From Bacteroidaceae bacterium (GTDB lineage: Bacteria > Bacteroidota > Bacteroidia > Bacteroidales > Bacteroidaceae): a DNA stretch of 64,000 bases. Positions within the stretch are counted from its first letter, which is position 1. Each line of letters starts with the position of its first letter. This document shows, in pieces, positions 20,294-39,801 of the stretch. The translations under genes were made by a program, and so were the position numbers. A model generated the notes under the pieces. It saw only the letters and a program-made list of their open reading frames with translations, was not told where the DNA came from and searched no databases. The DNA is taken from positions 62,001 to 126,000 of the forward strand of contig JAFNXL010000041.1 in assembly GCA_017379075.1 (NCBI GenBank), in the 5' to 3' direction.

Positions 20294-20318
20294 GGGTGAG
20301 GGGATATTTTGGGCGGAT

Positions 20319-20396
20319 TTTTACATCGTTATGTAAATCCATTTACACTTCTATGTAAACGCGTTTACATAACTATGTAAATCCATTTACATTTTA
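20319..20396. repeat. array of three 22-bp palindromic units (candidate operator array)
   Basis: Three exact 22-bp steps begin at 20331, 20353 and 20375. Units 1 and 3 contain ATGTAAAT-CC-ATTTACAT (unit 1 differs at the last base); unit 2 contains ATGTAAACGCGTTTACAT, a perfect palindrome. A half unit (TTTACATCGTT) precedes at 20319-20330. The common core is GTAAA-N4-TTTAC. A period of 22 bp, about two helical turns, puts all sites on one face of the DNA. It sits upstream of the HAD-GH127 promoter, as expected for an activator or cooperative repressor. The cognate regulator is not in the window. Confidence 0.82.
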
Positions 20397-20763
20397 ATGC
20401 GTGTGCATTGTAAATGTAATTTGATGTGTTATAGGTTTATGCTGTAAATGCCTTGCATAAGGCCGCTATCCCTTTATGAACTTACAACCACAACATCCAT
20501 TTGTTTCTCTTTTTATCTTCTGTTTCCAATATGGAAAGCACTACAAAACGCAGTGTCGGATGGATTTAATTCTGTGGATGGACATTTTTTAACGTGCAAT
20601 ATTTGTTTTGCAAACCATATTGATATTTATCATGACAAAATTCAATATATCAGCAAGATAAAAAAATGATATGTCCTATATTGATAAATGTAAAATCCGA
20701 AAATGGTCTGAATATGATAAATAAATGTCCGGAATTGCTAATAAACCTTAAAGCGAGAAAAGT
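20397..20763. other. AT-rich intergenic stretch, no gene supported
   Basis: No conserved coding pattern or strong hairpin was seen. A possible further half-site, TGTAAATGTAA, lies just after the palindrome array (about 20409-20419). A 73-codon frame at 20448-20669 has no initiation signal or family resemblance and is not called. Confidence 0.5.
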
Positions 20764-20771
20764 TAATTTTG
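20764..20771 (+). promoter_or_regulatory. Bacteroidetes -7 element before the small ORF
   Basis: TAATTTTG, an exact TAnnTTTG match, 27 bp upstream of ATG 20799. It is probably the main promoter of the long plus-strand surface-protein operon, because no other good match lies before 21039. Confidence 0.58.
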
Positions 20772-20798
20772 CATAAAATAAATTTATATTTGTAAAAT

Positions 20799-20969
20799 AT
20801 GTCGCTGGACACCGAAAAAGACTACAGTCATGTAAAGGCTGCCATTGATGCACAAATTGCACAGATTGATGCGATAAACGAGGCAGAACGCGCTTCTGCG
20901 CAGGGCCTAAAATCGTCATCACCTAATCTGTTCGCCCGTTTGAAGCGTTTGTTCCGGCGTCCTTGGTAA
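20799..20969 (+). CDS. small 56-residue protein, unknown function
   Basis: ATG 20799 to TAA 20967-20969 encodes 56 residues. The N-terminal two thirds is a charged, Ala/Gln-rich amphipathic helix with a near-heptad pattern (AAIDAQIAQIDAINEAERA). The C-terminus is strongly basic and aromatic (LFARLKRLFRRPW). There is no signal peptide. Support: a TAnnTTTG element 27 bp upstream, ordinary codon use, and a GC content well above the flanking AT-rich DNA. The next gene starts 69 bp downstream, so it may be the first gene of that operon. I do not recognise a family. It could be a nucleic-acid or membrane-surface-binding helical peptide, which is speculation. Confidence 0.6.
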   Translation: MSLDTEKDYSHVKAAIDAQIAQIDAINEAERASAQGLKSSSPNLFARLKRLFRRPW

Positions 20970-21038
20970 CGGTTTCTGAAGCAATCCATAATTATTAAAT
21001 ATTAAATATAGTAACAATTTAACATAACAAATGTACTT

Positions 21039-23894
21039 ATGAAAAAAACATTATTAACCATGATGCTAATGCTGGTCGGTATGTCAGCATGGGCACAAGA
21101 TTGGACTCCACCAAGCGAGAACGACTATCAAAGTTCGACTCCTGTATATGTCCAAGTAAATGTTAATGGAGTAGAGCAACTAAAAGCCGAAGTGGCAGCT
21201 TTCATTGGTGATGATTGCCGTGCCGTTTCACCTAGTGCAGAAACATTGGTTGGAGACAATCAGTATCATCTGCTTCGTGTATGGGGTGACCCCACAGCCG
21301 ATTTGAACAAACCCATCACTTTCAAAGTCGCGTGGGGCGGAGTTGTTGTCAAATTTAACAAGACGATTCCTTTTACAGGCGAAACTTATAGCGGAATTCC
21401 TGTCGTCTTGAATGCAGACATCCCTACAGGAATTGCTATTACCAATCCCTTGAATTTGGAGAAGAAACTTCCGTTCACGTATGATTTGACAAATGATGTT
21501 GAATTTACTTATTACGATCCATCAGGAGCAAATTCTTATACTCCGCTTGGTGAGTCAACCATCGAGACCCCATTGACTTACGAATGGGATTTTGCAAATT
21601 CTTCCAGCTACTTCACAGTGCAGGGAATGATGCTGTCTGCTATTGCTGTTACAGATGGTGCTTATTTAGGTTTGAATATTCCAGAATTGGGAATCAATGG
21701 TTCTACAACTGTATCAATTTCAGAACCCCCGGTTCCTGTTACAGAGATTCAGTGTGAGCCTTCAAGATGGGAGATGACAATTCACGAATATTTACCGAGA
21801 GTGGACGGCCTTCGTGATGCAATTAAAGTTTTGCCCGAGGACGCCACTAATAAGTACTATGATTTCGTGCCAGCAGACGATGCCGCTGCAGCTGTTTATA
21901 GTAATGGAATGTTCTCCGATGGCGGAACCTACAATATTAACATTGTCTCACAAGAGAATCCTGCAATATATACCACTATCCAGGTGACCGTTACGGTTCC
22001 TGTAGAGGGTATTTCATTGAACACTCCATCAAGTCTTTTCTATGCAGTACCAGGAGATATGGTATATAATGACCTTCGTTCTAAGGTGAATGTCAGTCCC
22101 AGCAATGCCACTAATAAAAATATTGAATTCACTATAATGAGTGAGGAAAATGGCTCTATAGTTGATGGTCAGGCGGCTGCGGCAGGAGTTAATACTATTA
22201 AAATTTCATCTGCAGAGGATCCCGATATTTATACAAGCGTTACGGTAATTGTCAATGAGATTGAAGCTCCTGAAGTTCTTGAGATGGAAATAGGACAGAA
22301 TTACTTAGACTTGCTGGAAGGACAAATAAAAGTGTTACCGGAAGAACCCAATAGGCCTTTCACATACACCCTCTCTCTTGATGATGAAAGTGCAGACGCA
22401 TTTGAAGACGATGGTACGGCCTTGACAGCCGGTGATTATCTGTTGACAGTCACTTGTGTAGAGAATCCAAGAGCAAAGGCTGAAGTTGTTGTCAGAGTAG
22501 CAGAACCTGTAGTCATTACCTTCCCCTCTTCCATTACTCTTTCCAAATTTAAGGATACAGAGTTAGAATTGACTTTGGTTAGTGGTGCTGAAAGTTTCAA
22601 TCCTGAATTACTTGAATTCCAATTAGAACCTATGGGCGATATTGTTCCGGGTGTGAGAACTCCAATCTCTTTCACTCCGATTGAAGACACAAACAATCTG
22701 CAATGGAATCTCCGAGCTTTCGCCACTGGTAGTTATTGGATCCAAGTATTATATAACGGAGAACCGATGAAGAACGAAGATTCTGAAGGAATTACCGCTA
22801 ACGTCCCTGTAGAGATTCAGTTCAATAACGACGGCTGGGATTGGATTTATATTCCCACTAACATGAACCTGCAGAATGAAGATGGCAACTATCACTCATG
22901 GATGAATCAGGATGAAAACAACCGTATCATCGAAATCCGTTCACAGACTGATTTGCTCTATAATGATGTCAATTATGGTCTGTTTGGAACCATTGACCAT
23001 TTGTCTCCTGGAGATGGTATGTATAAGGTAAAGGCTTCATACGAAAATGCTGAAGATGCCGTATTTGTTGGTGATGAATGGGAAATTTGGTGGGAGCGTT
23101 ATCCTTGGAAGGAAATAGTGAAAGGCTACAACTGGATTGGTTATCCCAATGAGTGGGACATGACCGTGGAAGAATTCAACGAATTGGAAAATCCAGCCAG
23201 TGATGGAGACGTAATTATTGGCAAGACAGGTTTTGCCGAGTTTGATGGTGTATCTGGTGAATGGGTAGGATCAGACGGTTTCTATTTCCAAGCCGGTAAG
23301 GGTTATCTTTACTATTGCGAAAACGAAGATGGTTATCCCGAAGGCATTTCATTCGACTACATACCCACAACTGATGAACAGATGATGCATCAAAGAACCG
23401 CACCTACTGCTGAGCCTGTTTCCAAGGAAAGCGTATGGAAGTTCGACGCTGGAAAATTTGCAGACAACATGGCCATGGTTGCAGTGCTTCCCCAATTGGA
23501 GAATCCAGAGGACTATACCATCGGAGCCTTTGTTGGTGAGGAATGCCGCGGTAAGGGTAACGTTGTAAATGGTGAAAAGATGATGATTTGTGTTGCGGGC
23601 AAGGCAGGCGAGACTGTCACTTTCCGCCTTCACAATGAGCAGACCGGCGAATTCATTGATATTAACGAGCGTGTGACTTATGCTCAACGTGTAGGCTCAT
23701 TGAAGGCACCGGTGGTATTGACCTCAAATGCCATCTCTACCGGCATCATCGAAATGGCAGCTTCCGATAAGTCTGCCGAGGGAATCTTCGATCTCAGTGG
23801 CCGTCGTGTAGAGAAGATGAACACCGGTGGTGTTTACATTGTGAAGAGCCGTCAAAACGGCAAGATTGTCACCAAAAAAGTGGTGAAGAAATAA
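21039..23894 (+). CDS. T9SS-exported protein with Ig-like repeats and 'AFVGDECRG' modules
   Basis: Secreted protein of 951 residues. Signal peptide 1-19 (SAWAQ). Residues about 30-135 form a beta module containing AAFIGDDCRAVS and a closing TGETYSGIPVVLN. About 245-340, 340-415 and 415-500 look like repeated Ig/Big-type domains (recurring YTTIQVTVTVPV and YTSVTVIVNEI ends). A Trp-rich part (about 600-770) has GWDWIYIP and YNWIGYPNEW. A second module (about 815-905) contains GAFVGEECRGKG and INERVTYAQRVGSLKAPV. The C-terminus (about 915-951) is a T9SS sorting tail with GIFDLSGRRVEK and GGVYIVKS. No enzyme motif is visible. It heads a run of closely spaced surface-protein genes. Confidence 0.82.
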   Translation: MKKTLLTMMLMLVGMSAWAQDWTPPSENDYQSSTPVYVQVNVNGVEQLKAEVAAFIGDDCRAVSPSAETLVGDNQYHLLRVWGDPTADLNKPITFKVAWGGVVVKFNKTIPFTGETYSGIPVVLNADIPTGIAITNPLNLEKKLPFTYDLTNDVEFTYYDPSGANSYTPLGESTIETPLTYEWDFANSSSYFTVQGMMLSAIAVTDGAYLGLNIPELGINGSTTVSISEPPVPVTEIQCEPSRWEMTIHEYLPRVDGLRDAIKVLPEDATNKYYDFVPADDAAAAVYSNGMFSDGGTYNINIVSQENPAIYTTIQVTVTVPVEGISLNTPSSLFYAVPGDMVYNDLRSKVNVSPSNATNKNIEFTIMSEENGSIVDGQAAAAGVNTIKISSAEDPDIYTSVTVIVNEIEAPEVLEMEIGQNYLDLLEGQIKVLPEEPNRPFTYTLSLDDESADAFEDDGTALTAGDYLLTVTCVENPRAKAEVVVRVAEPVVITFPSSITLSKFKDTELELTLVSGAESFNPELLEFQLEPMGDIVPGVRTPISFTPIEDTNNLQWNLRAFATGSYWIQVLYNGEPMKNEDSEGITANVPVEIQFNNDGWDWIYIPTNMNLQNEDGNYHSWMNQDENNRIIEIRSQTDLLYNDVNYGLFGTIDHLSPGDGMYKVKASYENAEDAVFVGDEWEIWWERYPWKEIVKGYNWIGYPNEWDMTVEEFNELENPASDGDVIIGKTGFAEFDGVSGEWVGSDGFYFQAGKGYLYYCENEDGYPEGISFDYIPTTDEQMMHQRTAPTAEPVSKESVWKFDAGKFADNMAMVAVLPQLENPEDYTIGAFVGEECRGKGNVVNGEKMMICVAGKAGETVTFRLHNEQTGEFIDINERVTYAQRVGSLKAPVVLTSNAISTGIIEMAASDKSAEGIFDLSGRRVEKMNTGGVYIVKSRQNGKIVTKKVVKK

Positions 23895-23907
23895 TATAAG
23901 TTAAAGC

Positions 23908-23957
23908 GACGAGCGGTTGGCAGGTAACCGTTCAGACGGTACAGACCGCCGCTCGTC
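23908..23957 (+). promoter_or_regulatory. large hairpin between the T9SS cargo and barrel genes
   Basis: GACGAGCGG (23908-23916) pairs with CCGCTCGTC (23949-23957); inside it, ACCGT-TCAG-ACGGT (23927-23940) forms a second stem. No T-run follows, so it is more likely an mRNA stability or attenuation element inside an operon than a terminator. Confidence 0.5.
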
Positions 23958-23984
23958 CCTATTCATTTAGTAAAAGGAAAAACA

Positions 23985-25712
23985 ATGAAATCCATTAGGC
24001 AGATACTTGTGTTGGCTGTCACAGTCATGCTTAGCGGCTCTCTGTATGCCCAAAACATATCCGAAATCGCCAAGAGCGACCCGCTTATCATATCCGGTGC
24101 TGTGGGCACACAGAACACTTATCGCTATTCTTCCGTGGGCAACGGTTATGGCTCGCCCTTAAGCAACACGGTGTATGCAAACCTGAATATCAGCCTATAT
24201 GGTTTCAATATGCCGTTCTCGTTGTATTATAGCAACGACAATCTCAATTTCAATTACCCCCAGATTTCGTTCAATCTTACCCCCCGTTACAAGAACTGGG
24301 TGGGACATTTTGGCCAATCATCAATGGCCATGAGCAGTTATGTAATGAATATGTCCTTCAACGGAGTGGGACTTGAATACAATAGTGACAAACTTCGTGT
24401 CGGTGCCTTTTATGGCCGTCTCCGTAATGCCATTAATGCAGACCCCACCGACCCGTTCTCACGACCTTCGCAATACAAACGCATGGGTTGGGGCTTCAAG
24501 ATGGGCTATGGCTCTGGCAAGAATTACATAGATTTGTATCTGCTCCGTGCCTGTGACTCAGAAAACTCTATCGATGAGATTTGGCGTCAGCAGATTCCAC
24601 CCCAAGAAAACATCGTTGTGGGTTTGAAAGGACGCGTTACACCTTTCAAATGGCTTGCGTTTACAGCCAACATGGCCACATCTGTTTTCAACACAGACTT
24701 GCGCGCACCCGAGGTGCCCATCACCACTAAGTTTGACAAAATATTTGATGTCAAATACAGCTCACTTATGCGATTTGCTGGTGACCTTAACGCCAACCTT
24801 AACCTCAAAGGAGTCAATGCCTCAATAAGTTACCGCATGGTGCAACCAGATTACACATCGTTAGGCACTTATTATATGTCCAACAACTATCATAGTTTGG
24901 GACTAACCCTCGGCACCACCTTATTTAATAAGATCTCCTTGTCTGGTACATTCTCCGGCCAGGCAGACAATCTTTCAAAGGAACAACTTTATACCACTTG
25001 CGGTTATGTGTATGCCGCCAACGCTAGCATGCGTTTAGGCAGCCATTTCACGGTCACGGCTGGATACAACGGTTATCTCCAGTCGCAACGTGCAGGAACC
25101 CGTGCCGTCAACGACACAACCAAGATTCACCGTATCATGTCAAGTTACAGCCTCACGCCCTCTTACTCATACGAGACAGACTTGTTGGGACACAGTGTCA
25201 GTCTGACGGCCAATATGACGCAAAACGAAGACCTCAACAAATTTGCAACAGGCGAGAGCGATGTCAAGACAAAAGCCCTCGGACTTTCTTACAACGTCGA
25301 TGTCAAACCCATCGAAACAGACTTTACCTTGACATACAGCCATCAGGAATCCAAAGGTTTCAAGAGCAAATACATCAGTGATGTGGCTTCACTTGGCACC
25401 AGCCGTTCCTTTTTAAAGGAAAAGAACCTCAACCTTTCTGCTTCGGTGTCCCTTTGCTATAATGAAATTGTACGCCAGTCTAAAAGACTTTCGCTTGGTG
25501 GCGACTTCTCTACAAGCTATAATATTAAAAAGGTGCATTTGTTGTCTGCAAGCGCTTCATTCAGCAAGTATGGCGACGTGAACATCACCAAAGTCCGCAG
25601 CAACCTCGACTGTACTGACATAAGGCTCAGCCTCAATTATACATACACATTCACTTTGTTAAGCATAAAGAGCAAGGCCAATAGAGAAAAAGAGAAACAG
25701 AATGCACTGTAA
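23985..25712 (+). CDS. outer-membrane beta-barrel protein, uncharacterised
   Basis: Protein of 575 residues with a signal peptide (1-22, SGSLYAQ) and then almost continuous alternating amphipathic beta strands separated by short polar turns, rich in Tyr, Ser, Asn and Gly: the picture of a large outer-membrane barrel. Examples of strands are LNISLYGFNMPFSLYY and VSLTANMTQNEDL. I recognise no named family; it is clearly longer than PorP/SprF-type proteins (about 300 residues). It sits between a T9SS cargo and the giant protein gene, 36 bp before the latter, which suggests it anchors or exports a partner of this locus. Confidence 0.75.
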   Translation: MKSIRQILVLAVTVMLSGSLYAQNISEIAKSDPLIISGAVGTQNTYRYSSVGNGYGSPLSNTVYANLNISLYGFNMPFSLYYSNDNLNFNYPQISFNLTPRYKNWVGHFGQSSMAMSSYVMNMSFNGVGLEYNSDKLRVGAFYGRLRNAINADPTDPFSRPSQYKRMGWGFKMGYGSGKNYIDLYLLRACDSENSIDEIWRQQIPPQENIVVGLKGRVTPFKWLAFTANMATSVFNTDLRAPEVPITTKFDKIFDVKYSSLMRFAGDLNANLNLKGVNASISYRMVQPDYTSLGTYYMSNNYHSLGLTLGTTLFNKISLSGTFSGQADNLSKEQLYTTCGYVYAANASMRLGSHFTVTAGYNGYLQSQRAGTRAVNDTTKIHRIMSSYSLTPSYSYETDLLGHSVSLTANMTQNEDLNKFATGESDVKTKALGLSYNVDVKPIETDFTLTYSHQESKGFKSKYISDVASLGTSRSFLKEKNLNLSASVSLCYNEIVRQSKRLSLGGDFSTSYNIKKVHLLSASASFSKYGDVNITKVRSNLDCTDIRLSLNYTYTFTLLSIKSKANREKEKQNAL

Positions 25713-25748
25713 GCTTTCCGCTGATAAAAAATTGAAAAATACAACGAT

Positions 25749-28700
25749 ATGAAAAGATATAGATATATAGCTGTTTGGGTAGCCTCACTTTTTAGTGCCC
25801 TTTCCATGTGGGCACAGGAAGTCATTGTAAATGTAACACCCGCCCAACAGGTGTTGCCGCCACAAGTGTTGTTATACTTGGCAGACCCTGGCAAGTTCTT
25901 TACCATTACATTGACCAATACCACAGCCGACGCCCAGCAAGTGCATTTGGGATTACAGTTGGAACAGACGATACCTTCCAGCGATTTGGCCATCTCCACA
26001 CCTGCCAATCGTCAGCCCCAGAATCCGTTTGTTATACAGCCAAACTCCACTTATACACTCAATTCAGTGGAGATGAGAAAACTCTTTGACCATATTCCAT
26101 CAAGTGAGATACAATGTCCTCCCGGCCTTTTTGAGAATTATCAAAACGGCGCTTTCGGACTGCTCCCGGAAGGCACCTATCGCGCCAAGGTCACTGCTTA
26201 TCGTTGGAATGACCCCCAGCTGGTAACACCCATCACGGTGAGTAATCCAGAAGGCGGATGGTGTACTTTCCAAGTCTGCTACAAGGCACAAGCGCCCCAA
26301 TTCCTTATGCCCCTGGCCAACGCCCAAAATGAAAACGCCATTGCAGAAATTGACCCTTTAAATGCGCAATTTGCCTGGACACAACCCGTGATAGCCTGCG
26401 GAGCATCTGCAAACTTTACCTATGATTTCAAGATAGTTGAGTTGATGCCTGGCCAACAGCCAGATGTGGCTATGGACCATAACCCGGTTGTTTATCAGGT
26501 GGAGGATTTGATGACCAGCATGTGCATGATCACAACAGATGTCCTTACAAGGAACTTCTATGCCAATAAAACCTATTTGGCTCAAGTAACGGCTGTGGCT
26601 AATGCAGCCGGTCCGCTTTCCTATGTCATGCTGGAGAACAACGGCAAAAGCACCTATCACGTATTCAAAATAAAAACAGACTCCGAAGACGCTAAGGAAC
26701 CGGAACAGACAGAGGAGAAAGAGGATAAAGATGACTCTTCAGATGAAGAGAAGGATGAAAAAGACGAGGAAAAGAATGAGGAAAAGGACGACAACGACGG
26801 GGAGGATGATGAATTAATTGCCCTTTGGGGAAAGAATTCAATGCAAGACAGCCTCTTTAACGATGCGCTTTACAATTTCCGCAATCCCACCATTACAAGT
26901 CCTGCGTTTATAGAAATTGCCGCCCGCAAGCAATTCCTGCGTAGCGATATGGCCATTGCATGGCGAGAAGTCTGGCATCTGGGTGGAGAAGGTCAAGAAG
27001 CCGACACCTTGACGTTTGATTACGAAGTCCAATTGTTCAACGGAAAATCAACGGCTGATAAGAAAGCCACTCTCGAAACAGAACCCATCTATACAAACCT
27101 GGTTAAGGGTTCTGGCGATTTGATAGACACTATTCATTGGGAAAAGATCAAGGACAAGGTTGAAGAAAAGGACTATTTGGTGCTGCGTGTAAAACCGATA
27201 TGTACCAATAATGCCAATGATGTGGCATTTCATTACGACAGCCTCAATGTGGTAGACTTTGCATTAGTAGAGTCGTTGTCCAAAAAGTATTTCCAATGTT
27301 CAAATATGGTGGAAATAGACAACGAGAAACCTACTACCGCTTCTGCCGATGACCTCACTGGCCAAACGGTTGCCATCGGTGAATACCAACTCACCATTGA
27401 TGAAATTAAGGAAGGCAAAAAGGCGGACACTTGGGAAGGCAAAGGACGAGTTGAATGGAATCCATTGGGCACCAAAGTCATGGTTTGTGTCAAGTTTGAG
27501 GATTTGAAAATCAATACAGACCTGGTTGTCTTTGATGGAACGGCAAAGTCATACTCCAATGACCCGAAGACAAACAATGACATTGTGGAAGGCCTCTTTA
27601 GTGATTGGGGAATCGACAACCTCATTTCTGATACAGGTATCCCTTATGCAGAACAACTGCAATCTACTGCTACGGACGGTGTGAAAGGATTGGCAGAGAA
27701 AATCGATTTGAGTAAATATTATGAATATGTTGTCGCCGGAGAGAATATTTGGAATGCCATTGGCAGTCTAAATATTGATGAGTTATATCTGCCTATAGGC
27801 CTGCCCGACAATTTGACAGCAATCATCAGTAATGACTCTACTGCCAAAAATCCTGTAGACATACAGATTAGTACCATGAAGTTTGCCGCCACCCACGCAA
27901 CCATGGACCTCATCGGTGAGTTCGTTTTGCCGAACAATAACGTAACGAAGGACCAGATTCTGGTATTCGGTTGCCCACGACTTTGTATCTCTCCAGAGAG
28001 AATCTTACCCGAATCTGGTACGTTGGCTTTGCTCTCAGACATGGCCTTATACGACCCCGAATCAGACTTTACGTTTACTTTCAAGGCTCCTAAGGATGTC
28101 CTTCATCCTGTTGACGGATGCTATATTTCATGGCATGCCGATAAGTTTGAGATGTTGGGCATTGATGCCGATATGGCAATACCCGAACTGAGAGTCGATT
28201 CGGCTGGTGTCATGACAGACCGCTGTCCTGTTCTCAACGTACGTGCCAGTTTCAGTGAATGGGAAGACTGGATGATAGACAATGTAACGATGGAGCCATT
28301 CCAGGCCGTCGATATGCCTGGTTGGACTTTCACTGTATCCGATATCGTCTATGACCACTCCATCCACCGTAATTCCACAGTTATGGGCGAATTCCCCGAA
28401 GGATACGACAAGAGTTTATCGACAAAGGGCGGAAATGACCTCTCATGGAAGGGACTGTACATCGACACCATAAGCGTACAGATGCCGGGTGCATTGACCT
28501 TTGGTGATGCAGAAGACGAACGATGCAAGATTTCAGCCACAAACATGTTCTTTGATGATTCGGGAGCGACTTTGAAGGTGGCCGGCGATGACATATTGTC
28601 TGCCCGTACCGGAAAAGCCGGTGGTTGGAGCTTCGAGATTGACCATATCTCTTTAGGTTTCATTCAGAACAACTTCAACGATTGTCATTTCAGGGGAAAA

Positions 28701-31700: not shown

Positions 31701-33830
31701 TGTGATGAGAATGGGAAGGAATTAGAAACAATTGGCAATAAATGGACTACAGGGGACGTTTGCATAATGACACCTAATTCGCCATTTACAAAGGTCGAGA
31801 AAAACAAGACATATTATTTAAAGGCCAGATATTGGGAGTATGGTTATGATACTGTTAGAGTGGAAAAAAAGACGATAAATACGAACACGCCTACTGCGAC
31901 TAAAATGGCGAGCGCATTGTCCTCTTATAATGTGCCAAAGGACCATGAAGGAAAGCTGAATGCGATGTATGCTGCTAATTGGGACTTTGCACCCGATGGA
32001 AACAGGCTTTCATTGCCAGCCCCGATGGATGATAATGCAATTGCAACGTCTGCTCTCCCCATGAGGCCAAGTGGCACTCCACAGATACGCAGGACAAAAC
32101 CTGTATCCGTTGATAGTGTTTCAATAAAATTAAATACGTATAAACTGAAAATATCAAAGAATGCGTTCAATGATTTAATGGCAGTGAATGCATTAACCAA
32201 GTCGACAACAGGAGAATACTCTCTTACAACCGCTAAGTTGAACGCTGTAGCATCGGTTTTGTCGGCATCCACATTAGCAGAGCTGAGGAATCAGTTGGCA
32301 AAGCAATCTACTGCATCTGGCAGTACAACAAAGTCATCCAATATAACGATGAACCGACAAACTTCAGAGGACAGCAATGCTGATGAAGGTAGTGGCGAGA
32401 AAACACTGTTTTCAAATGTTGACAATGATATGGCATCAATTTCAATTGAAGGAACCCGCCAACTTGGAAGTACAGAAACAGATAACCAGGAATCTACCCT
32501 GCCTATAATGAAGAAGGATGTAACGACCAATGATGAAGCAACAGGATCCACGACAAACAAAAATAATGCAATTCTGGAAGGAGTCAGAAGTTCATCTGGC
32601 GAAGCCGTCAAATTGGAAGGAGTAACTTCATCCAAGAAAGACAACAATGGTGTGATTCTGGAAGGAGTAACAGTAACGGAAGAGAAGGTACAATTGGTAT
32701 TGAAAAAAGAAATCACACTCGTAAATCTGAAAGTCCATAGTGTAGATGGAAATTGGCAAACGGGTTATAAGAACAAGGATAAAAAACGTGTGAACACCAG
32801 CTACGAAGTTCCTTTCTTAGGAATTAAGATTTCAAGCGTACTGTTCAACAGTGTGATTCCCTCGGATAATGAATACACAACCGATGCTTATATATCCAAG
32901 TATGATGGCCTTACTAATGAGCATGGTTATCGTGTTCGATCATATGACCCATATTGGAGAATCAGCTATTGGAGCAACTTTGCATTCATCGGTGGTTGGA
33001 GAATAAATGCAGATGCTCTTGGTGTGCAAGCAACCACATCACAATCGTTAATCTATACCGACTTGGGTGGTGTATATGAAGGTTATACCGCTAATGATAA
33101 AGCTTCTTATCGTATCAAGAATGAAATCTTGAATTTGCGTCAGCATTCTCTCTATGTTCCAAAACAATATTATTATCCGCTACCCATCATGGAATATGAT
33201 CTTCATGCTTATCGTGAAGGAGGTGACCCTCGCACTCCAGTATTTGTCCCAGGAGAAACGGCGATTGAAAATCTACAAAATGCCTTCAAGCAGTTAACTG
33301 ATTTAGAAGATGCCGTGATAGAAATGAATACTAAGATACTACTAGGTGCTGGTATAAACGGAGCTGTTGAAGCGATTAAGAATTTCTCTATTCCAGAGTG
33401 GGTTAAGGCACATGCTGGTGTGAATTTGACTGTTAGTAAAGGTGCTGTCAAATTAGAAGTGCCTTATTATCAGTTTGGATTGTTGTGGGGATCGCAATTC
33501 CCCAACTCCGGTGATACAAAAAAATTCGCATTGCAGTCAACTCTGAAAGGATTCAGCAAGGATGCATCGCGTGCTCAATTGGAAACCTCACAAAATATTT
33601 GGTTGAGTATGACAGGCTTGTCTTTGCTAAATGGTAATACAGTGAGAAAACCAAAGGATGGCTTTTGGCACAAAGATGATTACATTAAAACCATAACATA
33701 CCAAATGTATCGTGTCAATGCCTATAACTGCAAAACCAGAAAATATGAGGTGAAAGGAGTACACAATCCGCAGAATATGGTCAGAGTAACCATCTCTAAC
33801 CCTGCAGGCAGTAATCCTAAGGTACAATGA
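25749..33830 (+). CDS. 2693-residue giant secreted protein with TANFOR-like N-terminus
   Basis: Largest gene in the window. Signal peptide 1-22 (ALSMWAQ). Residues about 23-180 resemble what I recall of the TANFOR domain of Bacteroidetes surface proteins (an LLYLADPGKFFTITLTN start, then FENYQNGAFGLLPEGTYRAKVTAY). About 185-305 is FN3-like. About 310-356 is a Glu/Asp/Lys-only linker. About 380-1400 is dense beta structure with many SL-x-G and ASF-x-G strands. About 1400-1482 is helical. About 1595-1740 is Gly/aromatic barrel-like. About 1790-1920 is FN3-like (FYKLEITGYAKELYEG). About 2190-2320 is Ser/Thr-rich with three LEGV repeats, and then comes a C-terminal domain (about 2330-2693). It has no T9SS tail and no enzyme motif. 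From about 31650 the DNA becomes AT-rich. Function unknown. Confidence 0.8.
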   Translation: MKRYRYIAVWVASLFSALSMWAQEVIVNVTPAQQVLPPQVLLYLADPGKFFTITLTNTTADAQQVHLGLQLEQTIPSSDLAISTPANRQPQNPFVIQPNSTYTLNSVEMRKLFDHIPSSEIQCPPGLFENYQNGAFGLLPEGTYRAKVTAYRWNDPQLVTPITVSNPEGGWCTFQVCYKAQAPQFLMPLANAQNENAIAEIDPLNAQFAWTQPVIACGASANFTYDFKIVELMPGQQPDVAMDHNPVVYQVEDLMTSMCMITTDVLTRNFYANKTYLAQVTAVANAAGPLSYVMLENNGKSTYHVFKIKTDSEDAKEPEQTEEKEDKDDSSDEEKDEKDEEKNEEKDDNDGEDDELIALWGKNSMQDSLFNDALYNFRNPTITSPAFIEIAARKQFLRSDMAIAWREVWHLGGEGQEADTLTFDYEVQLFNGKSTADKKATLETEPIYTNLVKGSGDLIDTIHWEKIKDKVEEKDYLVLRVKPICTNNANDVAFHYDSLNVVDFALVESLSKKYFQCSNMVEIDNEKPTTASADDLTGQTVAIGEYQLTIDEIKEGKKADTWEGKGRVEWNPLGTKVMVCVKFEDLKINTDLVVFDGTAKSYSNDPKTNNDIVEGLFSDWGIDNLISDTGIPYAEQLQSTATDGVKGLAEKIDLSKYYEYVVAGENIWNAIGSLNIDELYLPIGLPDNLTAIISNDSTAKNPVDIQISTMKFAATHATMDLIGEFVLPNNNVTKDQILVFGCPRLCISPERILPESGTLALLSDMALYDPESDFTFTFKAPKDVLHPVDGCYISWHADKFEMLGIDADMAIPELRVDSAGVMTDRCPVLNVRASFSEWEDWMIDNVTMEPFQAVDMPGWTFTVSDIVYDHSIHRNSTVMGEFPEGYDKSLSTKGGNDLSWKGLYIDTISVQMPGALTFGDAEDERCKISATNMFFDDSGATLKVAGDDILSARTGKAGGWSFEIDHISLGFIQNNFNDCHFRGKFDVPLIDSEIGYKCQIVNVKEEHNAKAGDYAYIFTTQQVQENVNFDFFVAKAKLKKELTYLLVEAVPEEKEELETRVEFLMGGTLEIGGKENLQGFVDDIGLEFSVPDVHFAKMRLANCDRWESKYEKSLQDAANQDIKNAMLDLYQDKQFQWGSFYFNTGDWSLASEEKFLGPFSFSLTDYDFNYKNNELGVYLQGNLKFVESIELSASAGLEIKSTVSGIEEMDFSKISLKYKEVEFKDASFSASFGGMKLEGSLAVSNDTINGKGFAGTLFLSMPGDLFELDAKGGYYELPEFTWGYFDLALKGQGLRFDPIVMSGVHGGFYFNCIKESTSDTEFNVKPQNGVIGVILGLTISTSAGEDALSGTFEMTVAYDSEHNSLTRFMFTGDLKAVGGLVDAKATILYEYNDMTQYFALNITAEAGLSGEDALEAVLGENMKGFSDKLSELNDKFEGAVAGVKAGLGDLAGDSDEKVDEEDRDKAKAAKEQAQSGGDKGLSMKAGHTSITVDLRITMKEEGKDLDKVKWHLYIGEPADDKRCEFILIDFKSPIVTVNIGANAYLCLGNELPNDGELPPIHPTVQGFLDGSEKGAGVKSDDTNKANRMRTRALENFKADVSGGIMLGAAAWGMVDVDLGLFYGNMTAIGGFDLSLRHMTNMTCMNFDKDPGYHGWYGEGQIYAYLAAVMGLKLDLGFWEGEFPILDAGIGGVFRMGGINPNYFTGAARVKLKAFAGLVDVNRKFEFECGDVCDLFYGNALDNFELFGECSLGDTIKDNGWGDAHILDPYLDMKPTIETLAPLDEHFRVIDETEYQRMLRDWEGDAEALKAQASRTFVFHTNPQAILYEYNSDKDTKHARYYNIDYDLEQSFRTRHVFDMYQLNPNKFYKLEITGYAKELYEGVEDHPQTFNKETRDYEPVPWQQTRCFYFRTGTSKVNTLTPDSINLQDYVALAYPSSYGDLTTPEGYVDTAYVSDIQQPIISLKRDLSTAFPSETYKFINWTLCDENGKELETIGNKWTTGDVCIMTPNSPFTKVEKNKTYYLKARYWEYGYDTVRVEKKTINTNTPTATKMASALSSYNVPKDHEGKLNAMYAANWDFAPDGNRLSLPAPMDDNAIATSALPMRPSGTPQIRRTKPVSVDSVSIKLNTYKLKISKNAFNDLMAVNALTKSTTGEYSLTTAKLNAVASVLSASTLAELRNQLAKQSTASGSTTKSSNITMNRQTSEDSNADEGSGEKTLFSNVDNDMASISIEGTRQLGSTETDNQESTLPIMKKDVTTNDEATGSTTNKNNAILEGVRSSSGEAVKLEGVTSSKKDNNGVILEGVTVTEEKVQLVLKKEITLVNLKVHSVDGNWQTGYKNKDKKRVNTSYEVPFLGIKISSVLFNSVIPSDNEYTTDAYISKYDGLTNEHGYRVRSYDPYWRISYWSNFAFIGGWRINADALGVQATTSQSLIYTDLGGVYEGYTANDKASYRIKNEILNLRQHSLYVPKQYYYPLPIMEYDLHAYREGGDPRTPVFVPGETAIENLQNAFKQLTDLEDAVIEMNTKILLGAGINGAVEAIKNFSIPEWVKAHAGVNLTVSKGAVKLEVPYYQFGLLWGSQFPNSGDTKKFALQSTLKGFSKDASRAQLETSQNIWLSMTGLSLLNGNTVRKPKDGFWHKDDYIKTITYQMYRVNAYNCKTRKYEVKGVHNPQNMVRVTISNPAGSNPKVQ

Positions 33831-33860
33831 TTTGAAGCATAAAAAAGAAAAAGACAAGAA

Positions 33861-36188
33861 ATGATGAAACGTTCAATAAATAGCCTTTTCGGACTGATGA
33901 TTGCCACAATGACAGTATGTGGCATGGCTAGCCCTAAAGAAAATCATGTAAGCGTTTGGGAGGGTGATAGCATTCAAGCACCAGACACTTTTACATGGCA
34001 AGTGACAGATACGGCCGCCTACATGAAACAGTTCTACCAACGCCAACGCCGATTGGCGAATGTGGAGGCCGACATACATCTGTTGGCCCGTACTTACGGA
34101 GACAGCATTGTGCTCAGATGGTCTCCTGAAGACTATGTCAGCTGGCAATATCTGAACTATGTGGGTGTGAACATATATCGGTTTGACGTGGACAATCCCA
34201 TGATTGTGGATACGTTGGCCCAAGCGTTGAAACCCGAACCATTAGAGGTTTGGAAAACAGCTTATCCCCAAACAGACTCTGTAGCGGCAATTGCTATGGG
34301 TACACTCTATGGCGAAGGTGGTTTCACACAAGACCAATCAAAAAGCCGTCCGGGCACCATGGGAGCCTTGCTTGATGTGCATGACGACCAGCAATTCCGT
34401 TTTGCTGTGGCCGTGTTGACCACCGAATGGCGCCGTGACATTGCCGACCGTATGGCTATGCGTTTTGTGGACCGCAAGGTTAAGAAAGGAAAGAAGTATG
34501 AATATATTGTCCAGCCTGCAGAACGTGATACTACAGGGAATTTGAAATTCCGTCCAGGACACATACAAGAAGTGGAGAATCGTACTTACAAACCTAAGAA
34601 ATTTGATCTGCAAATAGGCGACTCGTTGATTGGCATCAACACCGTCCGCCTGTGGTGGGAGAATAAGAAGGAGTACTCTACCTTTGAAATTGAACGCCGG
34701 AAGATGGGTGATGAGAAATGGGTACGCGTAAACAAGAATCCGTATGTAATGATGCGTGGACTGAACGAGTCGGCCGATGATAACTATATCCGTGATATTG
34801 TTCCGGGTCCCGGTATCTATGAATATCGTGTTCTGGGATACGATGCTTTTGGCGACCTTACGGAACCCAGTCATGTACATGTGGCAACCGTATCTGACAT
34901 CAGTGCGCCAAAACCGGCCGACTTGAAATTGGTGGTCATAGACCGTCGTGACAAAGAAGATCTGTCCAAAGATGTCTTCGCAACATTTATCTGGGACAAA
35001 GACACTTTGGAACAGGACTTGATCGGATACAAGGTTTTGCATTATAATCCCAAAGATTCAGTGAAATGGCGTCCTATAAACAAAGAGATGATTTCGCCTC
35101 GTGATACAATGGCTACCTTGGAAGTAACCGGATTAAGGACCAGTCAGGTTGTGGTGGCTGCATACGACTCTGCCATGAATGTAAGCTATTCGTTGCCTCA
35201 TGTGGTGATGTTTACCGACTATAAGGCTCCTCCAGCCCCCACTAACTTCCGTTACCGAATATTGGACGTGGCCAAAGGCGCTGTGGAACTAAGTTGGGAT
35301 GCAACGGCTGATGACATTGATTACTATGAAATCGTTTTTGCTAATGACACGCTTCATCCATTCATGCAGGTTCATAGAAATCAAAAAGATTTGATACGCA
35401 AGACACGCTATGTCGACACACTGTCTGTGGATGTTAACCAATTGTATATATACTACAAAGTGCGTGCAATTGATTATGGTACCAACATGAGTAAGTATTC
35501 TCCTGTATTACAGGTTATCCGTCCGAGTTTGATCATACCGGCAGAACCACACCTTGACTCCACATACGTGGATCAGGAACGAGGCATAACCATGAGATGG
35601 GGATGTAGCGATGAAGCTCAAATCAATTACCACGTGCTGATGCGTCGTTTGGCAAACAGTAATAAAGACTGGGATGTCATCGGAGCGTTCAAAGCAGAGA
35701 AGGTGCGTGAGGCTGGCAATTTGCTGTTAGTAACGGACAGACCAAAATACAATCGGAGAAACAGATACGAATATGCAATGAAGTCGGTGTCATATTCAAA
35801 TATCTCCAGTCCGTTAAGCCTAATCTATTCTGTCAAGTACGAAGGAGCTAAGACATTTGACTGGCCTATCCGCCTTTTTGGCGACTACAATGCCCAGACA
35901 AAGGAAACAAAAATTGTATGGGAAACAATGACAGACCTTCCGTATGGTGACGATTGGTATTATTGCATCTACCGTAAAGGCCCAAAGGATAAAGTTGCAA
36001 GATTCATGACTTCTGTAGAGCGCGACAAAATGGAATTCTCTGATTATCGTCTCTCTGCTGGTGAAACCGCAGAATATTACATAATGATTCAATACACTGA
36101 CGGAAGAGCCAGCACACAATCAAACACAGTAAAGGTTACTGCACCTGAACGGAATGAGAATGATGAGCCGCAGGCCACAAGTAAGTGA
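33861..36188 (+). CDS. secreted protein with tandem fibronectin type III domains
   Basis: Protein of 775 residues: signal peptide (1-24), an N-terminal region of about 25-230 with its own conserved look (YGDSIVLRWSPEDYVSW), then several FN3-type domains (about 245-345, 350-445, 450-560, 560-665 and 675-765). Each has the pattern x-W-(D/E)-x-y followed by Y-E(I/Y)-x and a late Y-x-V/Y-x-A/V strand (ELSWDATADDIDYYEIVF, IYEYRVLGYDAFGD). No sorting tail or lipobox. It begins 30 bp after the giant gene, so the two are probably made together; FN3 repeats suggest a binding partner or spacer. No specific function is assigned. Confidence 0.78.
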   Translation: MMKRSINSLFGLMIATMTVCGMASPKENHVSVWEGDSIQAPDTFTWQVTDTAAYMKQFYQRQRRLANVEADIHLLARTYGDSIVLRWSPEDYVSWQYLNYVGVNIYRFDVDNPMIVDTLAQALKPEPLEVWKTAYPQTDSVAAIAMGTLYGEGGFTQDQSKSRPGTMGALLDVHDDQQFRFAVAVLTTEWRRDIADRMAMRFVDRKVKKGKKYEYIVQPAERDTTGNLKFRPGHIQEVENRTYKPKKFDLQIGDSLIGINTVRLWWENKKEYSTFEIERRKMGDEKWVRVNKNPYVMMRGLNESADDNYIRDIVPGPGIYEYRVLGYDAFGDLTEPSHVHVATVSDISAPKPADLKLVVIDRRDKEDLSKDVFATFIWDKDTLEQDLIGYKVLHYNPKDSVKWRPINKEMISPRDTMATLEVTGLRTSQVVVAAYDSAMNVSYSLPHVVMFTDYKAPPAPTNFRYRILDVAKGAVELSWDATADDIDYYEIVFANDTLHPFMQVHRNQKDLIRKTRYVDTLSVDVNQLYIYYKVRAIDYGTNMSKYSPVLQVIRPSLIIPAEPHLDSTYVDQERGITMRWGCSDEAQINYHVLMRRLANSNKDWDVIGAFKAEKVREAGNLLLVTDRPKYNRRNRYEYAMKSVSYSNISSPLSLIYSVKYEGAKTFDWPIRLFGDYNAQTKETKIVWETMTDLPYGDDWYYCIYRKGPKDKVARFMTSVERDKMEFSDYRLSAGETAEYYIMIQYTDGRASTQSNTVKVTAPERNENDEPQATSK

Positions 36189-36273
36189 GAAAGGCACTGA
36201 CAGATGGACTAAGGGCAATAGAAAACAAATGATAGCTTGATATTGATTATAGATAACGCTTAATATTCGGATA

Positions 36274-36969
36274 ATGAAAAGGCTATGGCGTATAATAATG
36301 TTCTCATGTGTGGCGGTCGTCATGACGATGACCACATCGTGCGGACTGATAGATATGGATTTTGGCACTGTCATACAAGTGCCATATACAATGCGGCTCA
36401 ATCCAGATACCGCCTATGTGATGGAGGGTGATACGTTTGTAATCGCACCGGTGTTTGTGCCCGATTCCGTAAGCAACCGCGAAGTTTACTATTTGTCCGA
36501 GGCGGACAGTGTTGCAACAGTACAGGGCAACACCGTGGTGGGTGTGTCTGAAGGAGAAACACGCATCAAAGCCATTTCCGTTCAGGACACCACGAAAGCC
36601 TATTGTCAGGTTTTTGTGATGGCTCCATGGGCGGTGAATCCATACGACTATTCCGATGACATGATTGTCTATGCTACAGCTATGATTGACGGCAAACCAT
36701 TTGACCCAGCCAAACAAATGATTGGCGCATTCTCCGGTCCGGAGTTTCGTGGCATGGGCAAAATGATAGAATGGCAAGGCCGGAAGTTTTTGCAGTTCCG
36801 CATATATGGATATATGGAATGGGGAGATGACGAGCCAACGCTACCCGAACAAATACGTTTTGCCTGTTATGAGAAGGAACATGTGTCGTTAAAATATGCA
36901 TCCTTATTGCTTCCATTTGACGGAGAAACACATGGCACTCCTTCGGATCCCATTGAATTAAATTTCTAA
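36274..36969 (+). CDS. lipoprotein with Big2-like domain and AFxGxExRG module
   Basis: Lipoprotein of 231 residues, signal ending TMTTSC (Cys23). Residues about 35-115 resemble a bacterial Ig-like (Big2) domain: PDTAYVMEGDTFVIAPVF, then VATVQGNTVVGVSEGETRI. Residues about 125-231 are a module with GAFSGPEFRGMGK, FLQFRIYGYM and a closing GETHGTPSDPIELNF, recognisably the same kind of module as those at both ends of the 951-residue T9SS cargo. It lies 85 bp after the FN3 protein gene and 13 bp before the next lipoprotein gene. Confidence 0.72.
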   Translation: MKRLWRIIMFSCVAVVMTMTTSCGLIDMDFGTVIQVPYTMRLNPDTAYVMEGDTFVIAPVFVPDSVSNREVYYLSEADSVATVQGNTVVGVSEGETRIKAISVQDTTKAYCQVFVMAPWAVNPYDYSDDMIVYATAMIDGKPFDPAKQMIGAFSGPEFRGMGKMIEWQGRKFLQFRIYGYMEWGDDEPTLPEQIRFACYEKEHVSLKYASLLLPFDGETHGTPSDPIELNF

Positions 36970-36982
36970 ATATATTTGTAAT

Positions 36983-39334
36983 ATGACAATGAAAAAGCAA
37001 ATACAACATAGTCTCTTCATCCTGCAAATCATACTGCTGTCGGCTTGTACGCTGAGCATGGAGGAATATATCGTTAAAGAAGAGATGAAAGGTGTGGATG
37101 AACCCCATACTGAGGTGACTCCTTTTGGCGAGTTTACTTATCAATATCGCAAGAATGTACTGCCATTGAATGGCCAGCCACAAGAGTATATCGCCATGAT
37201 GAATGACTCGGTAATCTGGTTCATGGATAATATCCCAACTAAATGGATTCCCAAAGAAGGACAATATATTGCGGCAAACTGTTCACGCATAATACCAACC
37301 GGTGTTCATGCTAAAGTTCGTTATGTGACAAAAGAAAATGGCATGATTAAGGTTGAATTTGAGCCTGCTACACAAAATGAAATCTTTGAACATCTAACGG
37401 CTAATATAGATTTTGATTATGATGTGCCCAATGTGAACGCAGAGGAAGACAGCGCAGAGATTGCCACCCGTGGCATCATGGTTAACGATTCGCTTTTCAT
37501 AGATATGTCCCTATTTGATGTCATGGAGAATCCCTACACGCGCGCTGATGAGAAGAGAGATACAACCATAAAGTGGAGCTATACGAGAGATTGGGACAAC
37601 TTTGGCGTAAACGCAACGTATAGCAATACCCAGCGTCGCCGTTTTCATCTCTATGATAATGGTAAGGGTTATCGCGAAGAGTGGACGGATACTAACGAAG
37701 AGATAACATTGGCATTTGATGTGGAGGCGGGTGCATCTAAGAGTAAAGGATATGAAAATTGCAAAACCCCCGAAGATGTGGCCGACATGGTTGATCGGAT
37801 TGAAGAAGTATTAGCTCTTCCAAACTTTGCCACAATGAAAGACAAGTCTTTCAAGATGAAAACGAGGAATATTTGTATCCCTGTCCCTTCCACTGTATTT
37901 TGCGTCCTGATCAATTTTGATGCAAGTGCCGGATGGGAAATACGTGGAGTTGTTCATGCCAAGTATCATCATCTTACACCGACTCTTCGAAGAGGTTATA
38001 TCATAGATGGTAAAGAAAAAACACCCATAGAGAAAGAATTTGCATCAGATTTGGCATTTAAAGAGAATGCGACGATGCTATGGACAAAGAAACAAGGGCT
38101 ACATCATTTTGGTTTTTCAGAACTATATTTGGGAGGTTCCTTCGATTTATGGGGGCGTGTACGGGCTGGTGTAGGATTTATAATCGGAAATCCCGCAGCC
38201 GGTGCTGGACTTGTGGTCGGTTTAGAAGGAAAAGTTGGTTGCATGGGATCTGTAACCACACAATATATTTATGATGAATTGGAAGAATATACAATATACG
38301 ATAAAGAACAATATAAGATTGAACCTTATATCCAGTTGAATGCGTATATAAATGGAATAGTCAATGTTATGGGCAGCGATATTGATATGGGCGGAACAAC
38401 CTTCAATTTGCTTAAAACTGACTGGGCAATGAATCCCAATGCGGTTGTAGATCCTAATTTGTGTAGTAAAAGCTATAAGAAAGGTGCCAGTTATGTAGAT
38501 GAAATCACAGGAGAAGAAACTTATGGAATTGAAATAGATGCAAATATTGGGTTTAAAAAACTACAGACATTTTTTATTTATGCAGAAGCAACCGCAAAAT
38601 GGCAATGGCCATGCCTTAGAGTTTATGCCGAAAACCTGCAATCAAAACATTTCGAAACTGTGTTTTATGAAACGGTTCGCACAGTAGAAACCGGTAAACC
38701 GTATAACTTTGTTTTCAATACTGCAGAGTTAGGGCTTCCAGATGTGGATGAATATCATATTGTTCCTTGTATATACGATGGTTATAAAAGAATTGTGACT
38801 GAATATAGGAATAATACGATGGTACTGAGTAAGGCTGATCCTCAAATTAAAGAAACCAAAGTATATCCATGGTACGGTAGGCCTCTTTCAAAAGAAGAGT
38901 TTGATGAATACGTAAAAAAGAACCCGATGTTGAGATTCTTTAAACATACTGATTTTGTGAAATATGCATTCACTTCTACTGTAAGAGTTAAAAATGCCGC
39001 TAATCTTACCAAATGGGGATTAAACTTCAAAGTGTACGATGAAGGAAATACAAATAAATTATTTCTTGATAAAGATGTGGATGTAGTTGTTGGACGCGGA
39101 AAAACGAAATCAGGCAGATATTCTGTTGTTAGCAGTTTTATCATTAACCACATTCCTAAAAATAATAGCGAAACCCCTTCGATAATAGTTCATCCCTATT
39201 TTGAATACCTTGAAAATGGACGTGAGGTTAGAAAAGATGGTGCGATTTCAAAACCATACCCTTTATACTATCCCTATGAACGCGAGGGTGGTGTATATAA
39301 AGTCGGTACAACGGAGTATGTTGATATACAATAA
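36983..39334 (+). CDS. large surface lipoprotein, uncharacterised
   Basis: Lipoprotein of 783 residues; lipobox LLSAC near residue 21. ATG 36983 is used, but ATG 36989 (MKKQ) is equally possible. The N-terminal 190 residues are soluble and acidic. A middle region of about 380-460 contains a Gly-rich barrel-like stretch (LYLGGSFDLWGRVRAGVGF), recalling the barrel-like part of the giant protein; the rest is mixed beta. I recognise no family. From about 37740 to the end the DNA is visibly AT-richer and codon choice shifts (many AAA, AAT and ATA), as in the 3' part of the giant gene. Position in the operon suggests an outer-membrane-anchored partner of the giant and FN3 proteins. Confidence 0.72.
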   Translation: MTMKKQIQHSLFILQIILLSACTLSMEEYIVKEEMKGVDEPHTEVTPFGEFTYQYRKNVLPLNGQPQEYIAMMNDSVIWFMDNIPTKWIPKEGQYIAANCSRIIPTGVHAKVRYVTKENGMIKVEFEPATQNEIFEHLTANIDFDYDVPNVNAEEDSAEIATRGIMVNDSLFIDMSLFDVMENPYTRADEKRDTTIKWSYTRDWDNFGVNATYSNTQRRRFHLYDNGKGYREEWTDTNEEITLAFDVEAGASKSKGYENCKTPEDVADMVDRIEEVLALPNFATMKDKSFKMKTRNICIPVPSTVFCVLINFDASAGWEIRGVVHAKYHHLTPTLRRGYIIDGKEKTPIEKEFASDLAFKENATMLWTKKQGLHHFGFSELYLGGSFDLWGRVRAGVGFIIGNPAAGAGLVVGLEGKVGCMGSVTTQYIYDELEEYTIYDKEQYKIEPYIQLNAYINGIVNVMGSDIDMGGTTFNLLKTDWAMNPNAVVDPNLCSKSYKKGASYVDEITGEETYGIEIDANIGFKKLQTFFIYAEATAKWQWPCLRVYAENLQSKHFETVFYETVRTVETGKPYNFVFNTAELGLPDVDEYHIVPCIYDGYKRIVTEYRNNTMVLSKADPQIKETKVYPWYGRPLSKEEFDEYVKKNPMLRFFKHTDFVKYAFTSTVRVKNAANLTKWGLNFKVYDEGNTNKLFLDKDVDVVVGRGKTKSGRYSVVSSFIINHIPKNNSETPSIIVHPYFEYLENGREVRKDGAISKPYPLYYPYEREGGVYKVGTTEYVDIQ

Positions 39335-39342
39335 TCGTGTAT

Positions 39343-39801
39343 ATGTTTTTCATGCAACGGATTAGGTGGATAATAGTTTTTGTGGCGATGTTCGTTTCTC
39401 CTGTGCTATCGCAGGAGAAACGAATTGTCATTCCTGATTCGCTGTTGAACAAGCCAGTTCTGACGCCCAAGATTGAGTTCGTTGAAAGTGAATACGATTT
39501 TGGAGATTTCTGTGCCACAGGAGCAGACACACTTAAAAATCATACCTTTACGTTTGTAAACAAAGGACAGAAGCCCTTGGTGGTATTGCGTGCCGTAAGC
39601 AGTTGTGGATGCACCCAGCCGACGCATACAAAAGACCCTGTAATGCCAGGAGACTCGGGAACTGTTACGGTTGGTTATCGTGGGGCGGGTCAATTGCCTG
39701 GCTATTTCCGTAAGTCCATTACTGTATATTCCAACGACCCACGTTCGTATGTCCGCATCTTTATCCGTGGACAGTTACTCGTAAATAAAGGGAAAGAATA
39801 G
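39343..39801 (+). CDS. DUF1573 domain protein, secreted
   Basis: Small exported protein of 152 residues. After a signal peptide it carries one DUF1573 (ASPM/SPD-2/Hydin-like Ig) domain: EYDFGDFC near residue 53, the strand FTFVNKGQKPLVVL, the hallmark VSSCGCTQP near residue 87, and a late ITVYSNDP. A GTG at 39337 is also in frame, but ATG 39343 or ATG 39352 gives a normal signal peptide. It begins 8 bp after the previous gene and closes the long operon. DUF1573 domains are usually binding or scaffold modules; the partner is unknown. Confidence 0.85.
   Translation: MFFMQRIRWIIVFVAMFVSPVLSQEKRIVIPDSLLNKPVLTPKIEFVESEYDFGDFCATGADTLKNHTFTFVNKGQKPLVVLRAVSSCGCTQPTHTKDPVMPGDSGTVTVGYRGAGQLPGYFRKSITVYSNDPRSYVRIFIRGQLLVNKGKE

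Follow-up and report, generated by a model that had tools for sequence, protein, structure and literature searches.

A conserved operon of Bacteroidaceae joins a predicted outer-membrane barrel, a giant protein with a TANFOR-type N-terminus and an FN3 partner

Closest described systems

TANFOR proteins of Bacteroidetes have been published as a class of polymorphic toxins (Jana, Salomon and Bosis 2020, PMC7073777). According to that study, their gene neighbourhoods are enriched in FN3, SprB and type IX secretion system (T9SS)-tail domains, and the toxins are hypothesised to be T9SS cargo; a second source lists TANFOR as a trafficking domain (PMC11796102). Here we describe an operon built around the gene for a 2693-residue protein in a Bacteroidaceae bacterium (NCBI GenBank assembly GCA_017379075.1, contig JAFNXL010000041.1, positions 62,001 to 126,000). 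This 64,000-nucleotide stretch, called the window below, is part of a 3.0-Mb draft genome that is 92% complete. We found that the gene order is strongly conserved in related loci, around a constant core of predicted barrel, giant and FN3 genes. Our preferred reading, held at about even odds, is a barrel-linked apparatus for surface display that in this clade is toxin-less.

The locus resembles TANFOR toxin loci, as PMC7073777 portrays them, in the TANFOR-type N-terminus, the large exported protein, and the FN3 and T9SS-type neighbours. Unlike those toxins, the window's giant has a conserved core of ~1200 residues and a tail in which no toxin domain was found, and no immunity gene accompanies it. 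The constant barrel partner in the window's operon also sets it apart from the published account, in whose main text the word 'barrel' has 0 occurrences (PMC7073777). An earlier note on this DNA, made from the letters alone, had called the operon undescribed; this is only partly true, because the TANFOR class was already published, FN3 and T9SS-type neighbours included (PMC7073777). The second comparison is with T9SS PorP/SprF barrels and SprB-type adhesins, as PMC10202324 describes them: both occur in Bacteroidota and combine an exported giant beside a barrel with a T9SS-type cargo, but the window's barrel is not a PorP/SprF protein and its giant lacks a C-terminal sorting domain (CTD).

A literature search by title and abstract, with most subscription papers outside its reach, returned no description of this barrel or of the trio of barrel, giant core and FN3 protein. 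BspA-type leucine-rich repeat (LRR)/DUF285 surface proteins are adhesins of Tannerella; one scanned tail from an 11-member tail class consists of such repeats, but the window's giant ends in another domain, an orphan. SusCD-type uptake systems combine an outer-membrane barrel with surface lipoproteins, as the operon appears to do, but it contains no match to SusC, SusD or TonB-dependent families.

Gene order and components of the operon

The locus comprises eight plus-strand open reading frames (ORFs), with the lengths that the earlier note had given:

20799..20969, plus strand: 56-aa ORF, no tblastn relative and no Pfam/NCBIfam match
21039..23894, plus strand: 951-aa secreted protein, T9SS-type cargo by family (family-level CTD support)
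23985..25712, plus strand: 575-aa predicted outer-membrane beta-barrel of a family without a Pfam model (strand and C-terminal features)
25749..33830, plus strand: 2693-aa giant protein, matched in 32/301 genomes of the family
33861..36188, plus strand: 775-aa FN3 protein, the constant partner (assigned by a profile search of the PDB)
36274..36969, plus strand: 231-aa lipoprotein with a Big_2 domain (E 1.8e-6; lipobox in relatives)
36983..39334, plus strand: 783-aa lipoprotein that differs between clades (lipobox in relatives)
39337..39801, plus strand: 154-aa DUF1573 protein, optional accessory (PF07610, E 2.4e-26)

From 5' to 3' the gaps are 69, 90, 36, 30, 85, 13 and 2 bp. The note's range of 8-90 bp was right at its upper end; its lower end applies if the DUF1573 gene starts at the ATG at 39343, and the smallest gap is otherwise 2 bp.

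Of 301 genomes of the family, 32, the window's own among them, gave a match in a search with the giant; they belong to 11 of 30 genera. Our comparison covers 24 giant loci, drawn from 21 of the 32, and the divergent loci of G008 and G049. This first set leaves out 8 of the 32 giant-bearing genomes. In all 24 loci the genes for the T9SS-type cargo, the barrel and the giant follow one another in that order, with a 94-aa ORF between barrel and giant in one of them, and the FN3 gene lies directly 3' of the giant at each of the 22 loci whose contig continues. The earlier note had named, as an observation that would speak against a unit, giant homologues found mostly without these neighbours; this is not what the loci display.

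A contig collection yielded no relative when searched with a single giant sequence and 198 when searched with an alignment of the giant's core. The best 80 of these 198 formed a second set, which partly covers the same contigs and was labelled with profiles built on the first, and the two sets are not independent. The 80 relatives come mostly from metagenome-assembled genomes of Bacteroidaceae and Prevotella from the guts of ruminants and other herbivores, and include the isolates Hallella seregens ATCC 51272, Prevotella sp. 885 and Prevotella sp. P3-122. Counted over loci long enough to show a given neighbour, the barrel was present in 68/69 and the cargo, upstream of the barrel, in 66/66, and the FN3 gene followed the giant in 60/61; the Big_2 lipoprotein was found in 46/55, the large lipoprotein in 36/38 and the DUF1573 gene in 9/28. 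Median gaps at the first five joints range from 18 to 80.5 bp, and at the giant-FN3 joint of the window's clade no gene intervenes (median 18 bp).

This recurrence of gene order is far above chance. The seven genes beyond the 56-aa ORF are a strongly conserved operon, of which the DUF1573 member is only sometimes present; barrel, giant and FN3 protein are its constant core, and the DUF1573 gene is an accessory. Since the neighbours recur almost without exception, a joint function of the products at the cell surface is likely. To that extent the cell-surface system proposed in the earlier note stands, while its adhesion and physical-assembly components find no support here. Its gene list mixes the three core members with an optional DUF1573 gene and the 56-aa ORF. 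The 56-aa ORF, which gave no tblastn match at E<=1 among loci L001-L282, was rejected as an operon component; it probably lies outside the unit and is perhaps no real gene.

The barrel family has no PDB match by sequence at E<=10, and single members gave Pfam matches scattered over unrelated families (best E 0.0023), none of them convincing. The 575-aa protein contains 29 amphipathic nine-residue stretches, compared with 16.9 (sd 2.5) in shuffled sequences. Because the same count is also raised in the giant (100 versus 85.4, sd 5.9) and in the cargo (37 versus 27.1, sd 3.7), it is not barrel-specific by itself; in the FN3 protein it is not raised (26 versus 26.0). An alternating aromatic strand lies within the last 45 residues in 38 of 41 near relatives, and a C-terminal F is found in all six distant ones (6/6). 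Judged by its amphipathic strands and C-terminal beta-signal, the protein is a predicted outer-membrane beta-barrel, in agreement with the earlier note. Profile-profile comparison with hhalign relates it to the barrels at TANFOR loci of other families (probability, Prob, 100; E 1e-71). Membership in PorP/SprF was considered and rejected, with Prob 3.8 against 29 PorP/SprF proteins (PF11751) and Prob 100 for a positive control that compared one half of these proteins with the other. The FN3 nature of the 775-aa protein, which the note had also stated, is borne out by its family profile, whose best match among FN3 chains of the PDB has E 1.4e-6.

The cargo call needs more qualification. In the window's copy the sorting-domain model TIGR04183 stays sub-threshold (E 0.091), whereas 9 of 31 family members match it at E<=0.05 and two, which may be among these nine, match a type C model. 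A profile of the family's C-terminus aligned with two CTDs of the same genome at Prob 83, whereas the corresponding tails of the remaining five families stayed at Prob 0.0-0.1. The sorting domain of the 951-aa protein, which the note had called a T9SS cargo, is supported only at the level of the family. The cargo (21039-23894) and the Big_2 lipoprotein (36274-36969) share a module, with reciprocal profile matches at E 9.5e-12 and 1.2e-16, and might co-assemble. A lipobox pattern devised for this analysis occurs in 38 of 49 relatives of the 231-aa protein and in 30 of 48 of the 783-aa protein; among those 30, position +6 is D/E in 87% and position +7 in 97%. The surface-export signal of Capnocytophaga lipoproteins has its optimum at C-X-K-(D/E)2-X (PMC5080379), from which the acidic pair at +6/+7 differs in position and in the lysine.

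Among the eight proteins, only Big_2 and DUF1573 pass Pfam cut-offs; the 775-aa protein gave a single match below cut-off (PF21200, E 6e-4), and the other five had none at E<=1. No enzyme family exceeded the Pfam or NCBIfam cut-offs in any of the eight, consistent with the lack of enzyme motifs remarked on before. The nearest genes on either side of the operon lie on the minus strand and, by eye, presumably encode a HAD-type phosphatase (upstream) and a chorismate synthase (downstream). Promoter- and terminator-like sites were fewer in the window than in shuffles; a Bacteroidetes-type promoter pattern matched the window three times, never upstream of the operon, and neither Rfam nor PADLOC gave a match in the window. 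Farther upstream (8739-14036, plus strand) lies a further T9SS-type cargo gene of 1765 aa whose TIGR04183 score, 22.1 bits, is just below cut-off. Elsewhere, two tandem cargo-type genes precede the barrel at L139-L144, L179, L182, L187, L190, L191, L193 and L195, and at L192 the giant appears split, naturally or through an assembly error, into ORFs of 1974 and 2490 aa.

The giant protein and its tails

Conservation divides the giant into a front (residues 1-1980 conserved in a 25-row alignment), a linker, and an end, residues 2341-2693, that is moderately conserved in part of the family:

25749..26696, plus strand: residues 1-316, signal peptide and TANFOR-type N-terminus (hhalign)
27369..31028, plus strand: residues 541-1760, conserved core (20-row alignment)
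31689..32768, plus strand: residues 1981-2340, variable linker, low conservation and mostly gapped
32763..33827, plus strand: last 355 residues, orphan C-terminal domain with a YRVNAYD-like motif (tail class, 18-row alignment)

A profile built from the N-terminal 340 residues of 25 giants aligned with a profile of ten TANFOR proteins over 283 columns at Prob 99.7 and E 8e-26, while control profiles reached 17.8 (FN3), 16.0 (barrel) and 2.8 (Big_2). The curated TANFOR model, TIGR02542, did not match the window's giant at E<=1, nor anything in any frame of its genome at E<=0.001. By profile homology the N-terminus is TANFOR-type, as the earlier note had suspected, though TIGR02542 misses it. The core contains four cysteines that are invariant in 20 rows and invariant or >=90% conserved among 78; against the PDB it gave three weak, unrelated matches (best E 0.019). 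It forms a separate gene beside the FN3 gene, with a TANFOR gene nearby, in G008, G049 and Persicobacter, and a single protein matches both core and TANFOR in G547, G549 and G688.

The 70 complete tails fall into classes of 49 (including the window's), 11, 3 and 2 members plus five singles. Twelve of the 70 were scanned against Pfam (five from the class of 49, one from each of the classes of 11, 3 and 2, and four singles): no toxin family was found in them, and ten had no match above cut-off. The window's tail has no Pfam match. The L154 tail, from the class of 11, consists of DUF285/BspA-type LRRs, a surface-protein type, and the L211 tail, from the class of two, carries LRR_4 repeats together with a ribosomal L7/L12 C-terminal domain. 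The L211 giant (14372-20893, plus strand) ends in repeats resembling that domain (PF00542, E 7e-11), which by eye also occur in L210 and in the giants of G252, G200 and G067; this is an odd fusion for an extracellular protein. Because the closest pair with different tails has only 62% core identity, while pairs of the same class reach up to 99%, tail exchange in the sequences compared appears slow and in step with the core, unlike that of a polymorphic toxin cassette. A sharp switch from a near-identical front to an unrelated tail between close relatives was not encountered in the window's clade.

Such a switch is found in G008, a genome of the same family assembled into 3 contigs and 99% complete. 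Within the 55 kb examined it encodes a barrel of 557 aa, a core protein of 1522 aa and an FN3 protein of 685 aa, with no match to the window's cargo profile. Its two TANFOR proteins (1652 and 1626 aa; C1 ~3523500-3550500, loci L280 and L281) share 48-50 of every 50 positions over the first 950 alignment columns (99%), then 34 of 50 in the next block and 5-14 per block beyond. A small gene, of 160 or 178 aa, follows each within a few bases 3', and neither the tails nor the small genes have a Pfam/NCBIfam match above cut-off. Near-identical fronts, unrelated tails and small downstream genes are the layout of polymorphic toxin-immunity systems, and by its sequence the G008 pair has this layout. 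The genome gave no match to SprA_N or GldM; no T9SS is detectable in it by these two markers.

TANFOR loci across Bacteroidota and competing readings

TIGR02542 matched 12 of 395 genomes of the phylum, none above the curated cut-off, and we examined the TANFOR loci of ten of the 12, leaving out G545 and G662. FN3 relatives are present at all ten and barrel relatives at eight, two of these as partial ORFs. Barrel and FN3 relatives stand beside TANFOR genes in other classes too, and in other parts of the phylum relatives of the whole core trio are found with TANFOR proteins, some of which are toxin-like. The barrel occurs in 11 of the 12 TANFOR genomes versus 49 of 383 others (p 5e-9, uncorrected for kinship). 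Its profile matched 60/395 genomes of the phylum (39/171 genera) and the FN3 profile 157/395, many of the latter probably through generic FN3 proteins; in each genome the two or three top candidates were scored, and paralogues may be missed. An FN3 match lies <=25 kb from 20 of 26 barrel matches with E<1e-40, a class to which the TANFOR loci add G612 and a third G688 locus. Named plasmid records contained four barrel matches among 72,556. In Runella sp. SP2 the barrel, a TANFOR giant, an FN3 gene, one further gene and a T9SS cargo stand in one run, and the window's cargo profile matches the cargo (E 2.9e-13); Persicobacter has barrel, core, FN3 and TANFOR genes; in Emticicia oligotrophica the barrel is accompanied by a TANFOR protein annotated as HNH endonuclease and then an SMI1/KNR4 gene. 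Bergeyella porcorum has pieces of barrel and FN3 relatives, and on its plasmid pQD2021 (L285) barrel, FN3, SprB-repeat, T9SS-tail, PKD and deaminase annotations lie close together in many short ORFs.

If the operon encodes a display apparatus, its parts can be placed as follows. The giant of the window's clade is a fused form, joining a TANFOR N-terminus and the core to a tail in which the scans detected no toxin. It would be exported by Sec and then held at, or passed through, its own barrel, helped by its N-terminal region and the FN3 partner, so that the tail is presented on the surface to a ligand or an adjacent cell. The outer face would carry the two lipoproteins, joined there by the T9SS-type cargo, which would reach it from outside through the T9SS. 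Gene order, homologies, the barrel-like sequence, the lipobox motifs and the T9SS genes of the genome are observed; physical assembly, topology, display and ligand are what we infer. A broader version, which we entertain only tentatively, is that the barrel, the giant's core and the FN3 protein together make up a hitherto unrecognised, T9SS-independent outer-membrane apparatus that exports and delivers TANFOR toxins across Bacteroidota; the window would then represent a branch in which the payload has turned into a display tail and T9SS-added accessories have been recruited.

Several observations weigh against the display reading. A ninth barrel, in G502, lies ~11 kb from the TANFOR gene, and in G508 the barrel is far off on the same contig. 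The flavobacterium-like loci of G498, G502, G583 and G614 have FN3, then one or more large genes, then TANFOR; with this other order and a barrel kilobases off, each is a neighbourhood rather than the operon seen in the window. The Emticicia stretch contains no FN3 relative, and in the two weaker classes of barrel matches an FN3 match lies <=25 kb away in only 9/23 and 7/16 cases. Finally, Pfam recognises no binding domain in the window's tail, and for this reason the display of a ligand-binding tail is drawn from relatives.

Of the alternatives, the one that survives best, though we consider it rather unlikely, is that all these genes encode one T9SS-dependent adhesin complex whose barrel serves as a cargo-specific shuttle like PorV or PorP/SprF. 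PorP/SprF proteins are described in PMC10202324 as PorV-like barrels for specific substrates, and the window's genome encodes SprA, PorP/SprF and GldM and has ten CTD matches. A cargo gene with, at family level, a T9SS-type tail is always present in the window's clade, and the Runella run includes one too. Against this, profile comparison separates the barrel from PorP/SprF, the PDB offers no match to it, and TIGR04183 does not match the giant, whose tail profile reached Prob 0.0 against the two comparison CTDs. SprA is found in 28/32 giant-bearing and 201/269 other genomes of the family, an association that is not significant (p 0.13). Four giant-bearing genomes have no SprA match, G010, G134, G256 and G008; the first three have GldM, while G008 keeps the core genes with neither marker detectable. 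G036 also lacks both.

Less probable still is that the giant is a TANFOR polymorphic toxin with a not-yet-described C-terminal toxin. Its N-terminus would fit, the Emticicia arrangement of an HNH-annotated TANFOR protein and SMI1/KNR4 gene beside a barrel recalls a toxin locus, and in the G008 pair a toxin-immunity layout goes with tails that match no family, so that missing domain matches do not exclude toxins. However, in the window's clade the FN3 gene directly 3' of the giant (30 bp away in the window) leaves no room for an immunity gene, and tails change slowly with the core. Besides the 12 scanned tails, six TANFOR proteins of other families contain no toxin domain (Pfam, E<=0.01), and because these six show none, toxin domains are not general even among TANFOR proteins of other families. 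We rejected the window's giant as a member of the TANFOR toxins, having found no TIGR02542 match, toxin domain, immunity gene or sharp tail switch: the giant belongs with TANFOR by homology, but not to the toxin class by the tests applied. A nutrient or glycan capture system is very improbable: the barrel, surface-type lipoproteins and large exported protein, and the many relatives from ruminant and other herbivore gut samples, would suit it, but no carbohydrate-binding, SusD or TonB-dependent receptor family exceeds cut-off in the eight proteins.

The new points, then, are that the barrel and FN3 partners recur and that both are kept in a genome with no detectable T9SS. The authors who described TANFOR toxins hypothesised the T9SS as their exit route, and a barrel without a Pfam model would escape domain-based neighbourhood analyses. 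The recurrent barrel, together with the G008 module lacking detectable SprA and GldM, offers a concrete alternative to the T9SS. With such an apparatus, the family of giant surface proteins found in ruminant-gut Prevotella and relatives would gain its first framework.

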